A stretch of DNA of 64,000 nt from assembly GCF_001434475.1 (NCBI RefSeq), contig NZ_AZGF01000010.1, positions 204 through 64,203 of the forward strand, in the 5' to 3' direction. Numbering within the stretch: the first letter of the stretch is position 1; the number at the start of each line of letters is the position of its first letter. A program made the translations under genes and the position numbers. This document shows positions 33,457-33,822 of this stretch, piece by piece. The notes beneath the pieces are model-generated. The model was given only the letters and a program-made list of their open reading frames with translations, was not told where the DNA came from and searched no databases. The DNA comes from Paucilactobacillus suebicus DSM 5007 = KCTC 3549. GTDB lineage: Bacteria > Bacillota > Bacilli > Lactobacillales > Lactobacillaceae.

Positions 33457-33515
33457 TCATTATATAAAGCAACCAGACGCCCGCCTGTTTGGGATTGATC
33501 CACTTTCTATTCTTT
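33457..33515 (-). repeat. Degenerate copy of the hairpin element
   Basis: A 22-nt run starting TCATTATATAAAGC and ending ACCAGAC is identical to the left upper arm of copy H at 33547-33568, 90 nt away. The opposite arm here is destroyed (CCTGTTTGGGATTGATCC). Confidence 0.7.
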
Positions 33516-33522
33516 ATAGATT

Positions 33523-33642
33523 AAACGTGAAAAAAACAGCAGTGTCTCATTATATAAAGCAACCAGACAGATATTCCAAGTTCGGGAATATCTGTCTGGT
33601 TGCTTTATATAACAGACACTGAACGCTGTTTTTTTCACTCTA
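33523..33642 (-). repeat. Long structured hairpin element (copy H)
   Basis: On the minus strand it starts TAGAGTG and ends CACGTTTAA. Basal stem of about 13 bp (GTGAAAAAAACAGC with GCTGTTTTTTTCAC, sharing ends), middle stem CAGTGTC/GACACTG, and a fully paired upper stem of about 27 bp starting TATATAAAGCAACC. It lies just beyond the terminator of the 19-codon unit. Confidence 0.9.
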
Positions 33643-33647
33643 TGTAT

Positions 33648-33676
33648 ATAAAAAGCCGGCATCATCATTTGCCGGC
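33648..33676 (-). terminator. Intrinsic terminator of the small-peptide unit
   Basis: GCCGGC (33671-33676) pairs with GCCGGC (33655-33660) around a 10-nt loop; TTTTTATA follows on the minus strand. Confidence 0.88.
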
Positions 33677-33690
33677 CTTCCTTAAACACA

Positions 33691-33750
33691 TCAGTAATTT
33701 TCACCGTTATTCACGGATGCTGATGCCTTAAGTTGTATTCCATTTGTCAA
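33691..33750 (-). CDS. Candidate 19-residue small protein with a perfect Shine-Dalgarno
   Basis: TTG at 33750 reads MTNGIQLKASASVNNGENY and stops at TGA (33691-33693). Nine nt before the start lies AAAGGAGGTGAT, an extended match to the 16S rRNA 3' end, far stronger than those of neighbouring genes. The ORF has its own promoter (33781-33809) and terminator (33648-33676), so the whole unit is about 125 nt. No signal peptide or membrane segment is seen. It could also be a regulatory RNA in which the ribosome site has another role. Confidence 0.5.
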   Translation of the reverse strand: MTNGIQLKASASVNNGENY

Positions 33751-33780
33751 AAGACATCACCTCCTTTGTTTGATGGTTAG

Positions 33781-33809
33781 AATATATCACCAAGTTGGAT
33801 GAAAATCAA
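33781..33809 (-). promoter_or_regulatory. Promoter of the small-peptide unit
   Basis: -35 TTGATT (33804-33809) and -10 TATATT (33781-33786) with a 17-bp spacer on the minus strand; expected start near 33774. Confidence 0.7.
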
Positions 33810-33822
33810 TTAATTGCAATCT

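Follow-up and report, generated by a model that had tools for sequence, protein, structure and literature searches.

The 64,000-nt stretch of Paucilactobacillus suebicus DNA analysed here (the window) carries a short RNA gene which is found, one copy per genome, in several genera of the Lactobacillaceae, and whose open reading frame (ORF) of 16–19 codons is overlaid by two mutually exclusive stems, A and B, that are well supported by sequence comparison. We tentatively regard the element, at somewhat less than even confidence, as a ribosome-gated regulatory RNA, in which selection would favour ribosome docking or translation for its effect on the RNA's state, while the product of 16–19 residues would be secondary. 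The RNA switch, the family-wide distribution and the single-copy, stand-alone nature of the element are all features that the initial annotation of this DNA could not see. It had described a promoter, an extended Shine-Dalgarno sequence (SD), an ORF and a terminator without stating the strand; all four were confirmed, and every described part was found at 33809 to 33648 on the minus strand. The features of the window copy are as follows.

33804–33809, minus strand: -35 element TTGATT (promoter scan)
33781–33786, minus strand: -10 element TATATT with TG just before it (promoter scan)
33650–33774, minus strand: predicted transcript of about 125 nt, its ends inferred from the promoter and the T-run
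33756–33767, minus strand: extended SD AAAGGAGGTGAT (complementarity to the 16S tail)
33751–33759, minus strand: 5' arm of stem A, within the SD and spacer (fold, covariation)
33691–33750, minus strand: ORF of 19 codons, TTG start at 33750 and TGA stop at 33693–33691 (translation)
33721–33729, minus strand: shared arm, comprising the 3' arm of stem A and part of the 5' arm of stem B (folds)
33715–33719, minus strand: bases pairing with the SD core (33761–33764) in the predicted nascent fold
33681–33732, minus strand: hairpin B, which holds the second half of the ORF and the stop codon (fold)
33650–33677, minus strand: intrinsic terminator, GCCGGCA...TGCCGGC followed by T5 (minimum-energy fold)

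The TTGATT-17-TATATT pair spans 33809–33781 (minus strand), and as the window holds three promoter-like sites on its two strands against 4.0 expected in shuffles, the pair alone is not significant. The proposed unit of 125 nt agrees in length with the predicted transcript, from about 33774 to 33650, and a covariance-model match spans 33649–33774 on the same strand. A strong SD on so tiny an ORF had been called unusual. AAAGGAGGTGAT is a perfect 12-nt complement to the 16S 3' tail of its own genome and occurs once in the window against 0.01 expected. The ORF had been given as 19 codons, which is its length here, and its predicted product is MTNGIQLKASASVNNGENY. The GC-rich terminator was recovered as a GCCGGCA/TGCCGGC hairpin with T5 inside the minimum-energy fold of 126 nt (z = -4.81, none of 200 shuffles as good); the hairpin at 33677–33650 is absent from the list made by the mechanical terminator scan.

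The family was collected with a covariance model built from six copies, followed by a second built from 76 matches, with a cut-off of E ≤ 1e-5. At this cut-off 105 of 397 Lactobacillaceae genomes, from 12 of the 40 genera sampled, each carry a single copy of the element, while the other 28 genera gave no match. It was found in all 21 Lactiplantibacillus genomes, in 32 of 35 genomes of genus g15 (probably Levilactobacillus) and in 22 of 24 Lentilactobacillus genomes. A DNA search placed it in six of the seven genomes of its own genus, its own genome counted, against three of seven for the adjacent cupin gene. A strict-pattern scan of 84,980 species genomes returned 59 loci, 52 of which match the covariance model and are all from Lactobacillaceae or labelled Lactobacillus; the seven loci outside the family have no covariance-model match and were discarded. 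Across 395 genomes of the order there were 21 strong matches, all within Lactobacillaceae. Two weak matches in other families look by eye like terminator hairpins without SD and ORF and are probably false, and a second weak match in the genome of the window has the same appearance. The window's copy had no match in plasmid and phage collections (blastn, E ≤ 1e-3, not sensitive enough to reach the most distant copies). By eye, element-positive genomes tend to be the larger ones when set beside the 20 listed of the 292 match-free Lactobacillaceae genomes.

The genes around 21 copies mostly differ. The first downstream ORF (at least 90 aa, called mechanically, some perhaps spurious) is co-directional in 11 loci and convergent in 10, and the most widely shared downstream gene pair occurs in three genera. 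Mostly different neighbours with some shared order fit vertical inheritance with rearrangement, and indicate no single governed neighbour. With its conserved promoter-like pair, its terminator and its mostly unconserved surroundings, the element has the features of an independent unit, and on comparison of these loci it is apparently a stand-alone, vertically inherited RNA gene. The same observations bear on whether the element is instead a cis-acting leader-peptide attenuator of a downstream gene. Leader-peptide attenuators and the RNAs derived from them include the ermC-type leaders and rnTrpL, and they share with the element a short ORF with an SD, mutually exclusive hairpins over that ORF and a terminator. 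The element, however, has its own gene, a little-conserved peptide and no common regulated gene downstream, and in the window stem B shares no bases with the terminator stem; of the explanations weighed here we consider this one the least probable.

Copies were extracted with expressions that required an SD-like string and a TTG, together with a length of 15–20 for 15 copies added later. None of 111 model matches failed the SD or TTG requirement, and these 111 places gave 78 distinct copies, L097 (weak and without the anatomy) having been left out beforehand together with four other weak matches, of which L098 contributed two and L058 and L045 a single one each. The stem and gate counts use 52 or 73 distinct rows of the 78, and the promoter counts use 77 copies, since one lies too close to a contig end. 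For the codon set, which brings the distinct copies to 93, 46 of 47 further loci passed the expression (SD, TTG, length 15–20, Lys or Ile); L199 escaped it because Glu takes the place of Lys there, its anatomy being otherwise the same.

The peptide is less strictly conserved than the SD, the start, the length of the frame and the stop. A promoter score of at least 9 of 12 was found near the same place in 52% of the 77 copies, against 3.7% of random positions; the best -35 starts with TTG in 70 copies, the spacer is 17 in 63, and the -10 ends 16–18 nt before GGRGG in 58. The SD reads AAAGGRGGTGAT in 85 of the 93 distinct copies, with near variants in the other eight, and the start is TTG in all 93, with no ATG or GTG at SD+9 to SD+18. 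The first in-frame stop falls after 16–19 codons in 78 of 78 distinct copies, compared with 8.6% of mononucleotide shuffles, while the other two frames have mostly early, scattered stops. Even in Furfurilactobacillus, where hairpin B is much larger, the frame is still 19 codons.

Part of this conservation would suit a base-pairing small RNA or sponge, in which the G-rich SD-like stretch pairs with C/U-rich RNAs, the two folds hide or expose it, and translation is incidental. The SD-like stretch is indeed among the most conserved segments of the element, and the promoter and terminator are conserved as well. Such an RNA leaves the fixed start and the frame of 16–19 codons unexplained, and we think it distinctly unlikely. 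The terminator loop was also considered as a conserved seed and rejected: AATT begins 23 of 87 loops in the element, as against 11 of 120 in background terminators, and is the commonest start in both.

Stem A is formed by SD+5 to SD+13 and the nine nucleotides that encode Lys-Ala-Ser. Outside genus g15 (47 distinct rows) every cell forms a standard pair, and 97.4% of cells do so over all 52 rows, as opposed to 28–52% when the partner strand was slid. The stem covaries: both sides have changed in 20 cells, where shuffles give 1.35 and none of 500 reaches 20, and in four pairs, where shuffles give 0.85 and 1 of 500 reaches four; these shuffles ignore relatedness. GATAC faces GTGTC in two Lentilactobacillus copies (L047 and L083), and in L076 an A-T pair stands in place of T-A, so that the Lys codon has become ATA (Ile) with compensation on the other arm; in L199 the Lys codon is GAA (Glu) and a G-U pair is possible (by eye). 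Five g15 rows are without the stem A register and instead set GGGGGTGAT opposite ATCGCTTCC (GTCGCTTCC in one), a pairing with weaker support because its register was found by eye. Nascent folds have a mean z of -3.5 (range -5.4 to -1.1). Stem B pairs the shared arm with sequence at and after the end of the ORF, with z below -2 in all 73 rows (mean -5.0) and several pair types at the same positions. Hairpin B encloses the stop codon in 73 of 73 rows: 56 have it in the 3' arm and 17 ahead of that arm. The mean energies of the two stems are close (A -20.1, B -20.6 kcal/mol) and B is the lower in 35 of 73 rows, hence many RNAs may stay in A.

The folding model predicts that A precedes B and that the SD becomes cheaper to open afterwards. 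The modelled cost of opening the SD and start averages 17.3 kcal/mol in the nascent RNA, of which only the 5' half exists. It averages 7.6 kcal/mol for the full RNA minus its terminator and 13.9 for a version with a shuffled 3' part; the full RNA is below the nascent one by more than 2 kcal/mol in 73 of 73 rows and below the shuffled one by the same margin in 72. A shuffled 3' part also lowers the cost by more than 2 kcal/mol relative to the nascent RNA in 60 of 73 rows, and the drop is therefore partly unspecific. The mean accessibility of the SD core barely shifts, from 0.31 nascent to 0.35 full, and the rise exceeds 0.05 in no more than 31 of 73 rows, since a small local hairpin is predicted to cover part of the SD when B forms. 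The gate is thus a matter of predicted energies and not a demonstrated on/off switch. We also considered whether a terminating ribosome on the stop would re-close the SD, and rejected this, as accessibility fell in only 26 of 73 masked folds.

A nascent hairpin that hides the SD and is replaced as transcription proceeds has been reported for aapA3 of Helicobacter pylori (PMC6733600), which raises the question of whether the element is a type I toxin mRNA gated like hok or aapA. The likeness lies in the short mRNA and in a metastable SD-sequestering hairpin that later gives way to another fold, which in the element is predicted by folding and consistent with the covariation. The full-length toxin mRNA is described as inert (PMC6733600), whereas the later fold of the element is predicted to ease opening of the SD. 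Nor does the predicted product fit a hydrophobic, conserved membrane peptide: GRAVY over 93 copies averages -0.09 (range -0.89 to 1.14), which is not membrane-like on average, and conservation is weak, with N-terminal codons that evolve neutrally. No antisense RNA is evident, there being no convincing antisense promoter at a conserved place, and the fact that the window's copy matched nothing in the plasmid and phage collections also tells against a toxin. An opposite-strand anti-SD RNA was rejected with promoter scores beyond the terminator at background (7.53 vs 7.38). The best antisense position inside the element has a mean score of 7.06, which slightly exceeds the 6.59 of the best sense position when that is taken at a single fixed place; by eye it comes from the T-run and has no plausible -10, and an internal antisense promoter is rejected here, although not disproved. 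We judge the toxin reading very improbable.

The initial annotation had suggested either a small peptide with a regulatory role or an RNA that may pair with ribosomes or occupy them, and had proposed third codon positions as a test; the suggestion is partly supported and the codon evidence is split. Single-base events were counted on trees of the 93 distinct copies less one class of two members, with multi-base codon changes set aside (41 in the loop, 7 in LKASA, 51 C-terminal). Codons before Leu-Lys are neutral (21 of 88 events synonymous, 0.24 against 0.24 expected), and third positions do not dominate there, with 26, 36 and 26 events at positions 1, 2 and 3. The C-terminal codons show a modest excess of synonymous events (35 of 87, 0.40 against 0.25 expected, P = 0.0013), which at positions unpaired in stem B is 18 of 38 against 0.30 (P = 0.02, uncorrected) and at paired positions 17 of 49 against 0.28 (P = 0.20). 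In the LKASA core, 25 of 35 events are synonymous against 0.27 expected, 13 of these 25 being AAA/AAG changes at a base paired in stem A; divided by stem B pairing, synonymous events make up 11 of 15 at unpaired and 14 of 20 at paired bases, both against an expected 0.33. LKASA lies within two overlapping stems, and its signal therefore cannot decide between peptide and RNA. Pairwise counts run in the same direction as the trees (synonymous in 5 of 34 in the loop, 5 of 9 in LKASA and 13 of 24 after K+4), and the tree-based counts supersede an earlier pairwise count of 4 of 39 in the loop. The C-termini differ between genera and share little (VENELK, SALFGAQD, ENGND, ELNA).

The C-terminal coding signal, seen also at positions left unpaired by stem B, favours a functional micropeptide gene in which the role of the stems is limited to timing or damping translation and constraint on the peptide sequence is loose. 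The synonymous excess in LKASA and the retention of a strong SD, a frame length and a stop are likewise in keeping with such a gene. It is less easily squared with the neutral codons before Leu-Lys, with C-termini that vary by genus, or with a TTG that is kept throughout and never replaced by ATG; moreover, about half of the synonymous events in LKASA fall on the stem A-paired base, and Lys has been lost while pairing was kept in L076 and L199. We consider a micropeptide gene somewhat unlikely. Our reading of these alignments is that translation is conserved and its product at most loosely, which leaves the peptide hypothesis alive.

In the ribosome-gated regulatory RNA that we prefer, stem A would form first during transcription, burying the site where the ribosome binds. 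Completion of the 3' arm of hairpin B would allow B to capture the shared arm from A, and opening the ribosome site would then cost about 10 kcal/mol less. A 30S subunit would dock on the very long SD, initiation from the weak UUG start would be slow, and one short frame would be translated, ending inside hairpin B. The pairing of a strong dock with a weak start codon is suited to initiation that is slow or regulated. A very strong SD close behind the polymerase might also interfere with the terminator, and a gate that opened only near the transcript end would avoid this. We infer that docking or translation, and not the peptide, is the output, and that the RNA acts in trans. In a more specific form, which we think unlikely, this single-copy RNA, core to several genera of lactobacilli, would be a free-standing ribosome-operated switch that reports on or modulates free 30S subunits, with docking or translation itself as its output and neither the peptide nor a downstream gene. 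Among the main explanations we rank the docking or translation signal first, the micropeptide second and base-pairing third.

Some features of the element are known from other systems. Dual-function small RNAs, a class that also encodes a small protein (PMC5521070), resemble it as small independent RNAs with what in the element looks like a translated ORF, and differ in that the ORF of the element lies inside the switching structure. In Staphylococcus aureus, infC, cvfC1 and ccpN combine an extended SD and a conserved non-AUG start with regulated initiation (PMC13009471). The element likewise has long SD complementarity and a conserved non-AUG start; the S. aureus sites use AUA or AUU on ordinary genes, whereas the element uses UUG on a tiny frame. 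Against Rfam 15 the element had no family at gathering threshold and six sub-threshold matches (best E 1.8), of which the only lactic-acid-bacterial name, Lacto-usp RNA (RF01710), is at chance level (15.6 bits against a threshold of 50, E = 6); the only above-threshold match in the window is one tRNA elsewhere. Among the literature matches listed, no title or abstract start describes the element, and seven vesicle RNA sequences of L. plantarum shown in PMC9436029 bear no resemblance to it by eye.

As far as we have looked, then, the parts are of known kinds, and what is new is their combination in a free-standing gene core to several genera. All Lactiplantibacillus species genomes examined, and nearly every genome of two other large genera, contain the gene; it appears to be without an Rfam family and is too short for ordinary gene callers. 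Its design consists of a perfect or near-perfect extended SD, UUG without AUG, a fixed frame length, a drifting N-terminal peptide and two competing stems. Such a design separates being translated from making a particular peptide, a distinction that is directly testable in L. plantarum, a food bacterium that is easy to work with.

Upstream of the -35 in the window is the cupin gene, itself preceded by a 6-phosphogluconate-dehydrogenase-like gene, and a gene for an SNF2-family helicase follows at some distance downstream, also on that strand (Pfam, ORFs). The unit had been described as having almost no spare sequence between these neighbours, which holds on the cupin side, where 13 nt (33810–33822) separate the cupin stop from the -35, and fails on the SNF2 side, where there are about 366 nt. 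The mechanical scan listed no terminator at 33810–33822, and with so short a gap read-through from the upstream operon is possible. In other genera some neighbours recur. The Agri-, Schleiferi- and Lapidilactobacillus copies (L053, L054, L057) have the same two co-directional genes downstream (166–246 aa and 102–106 aa), possibly marking an old location. A LysR-like gene, whose copies form one cluster across genera, lies within 1.8 kb of the element, at varying distances and on varying strands, in Furfuri-, Secundi-, Lactiplanti- and Paucilactobacillus and in g15 (L043, L051, L052, L056 and L059, the LysR-type naming being by eye), and L052 and L056 share a gene of about 410 aa that is aminotransferase-like by eye. 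The downstream gap in the window contains a large nested palindrome at 33513–33652, with perfect 28-nt arms 7 nt apart, outer 28-nt arms that are 79% complementary, and a third partial copy at 33460–33478. Related stretches with 70–81% identity occur on four other contigs of the same genome, and the palindrome is perhaps a member of a small repeat family.
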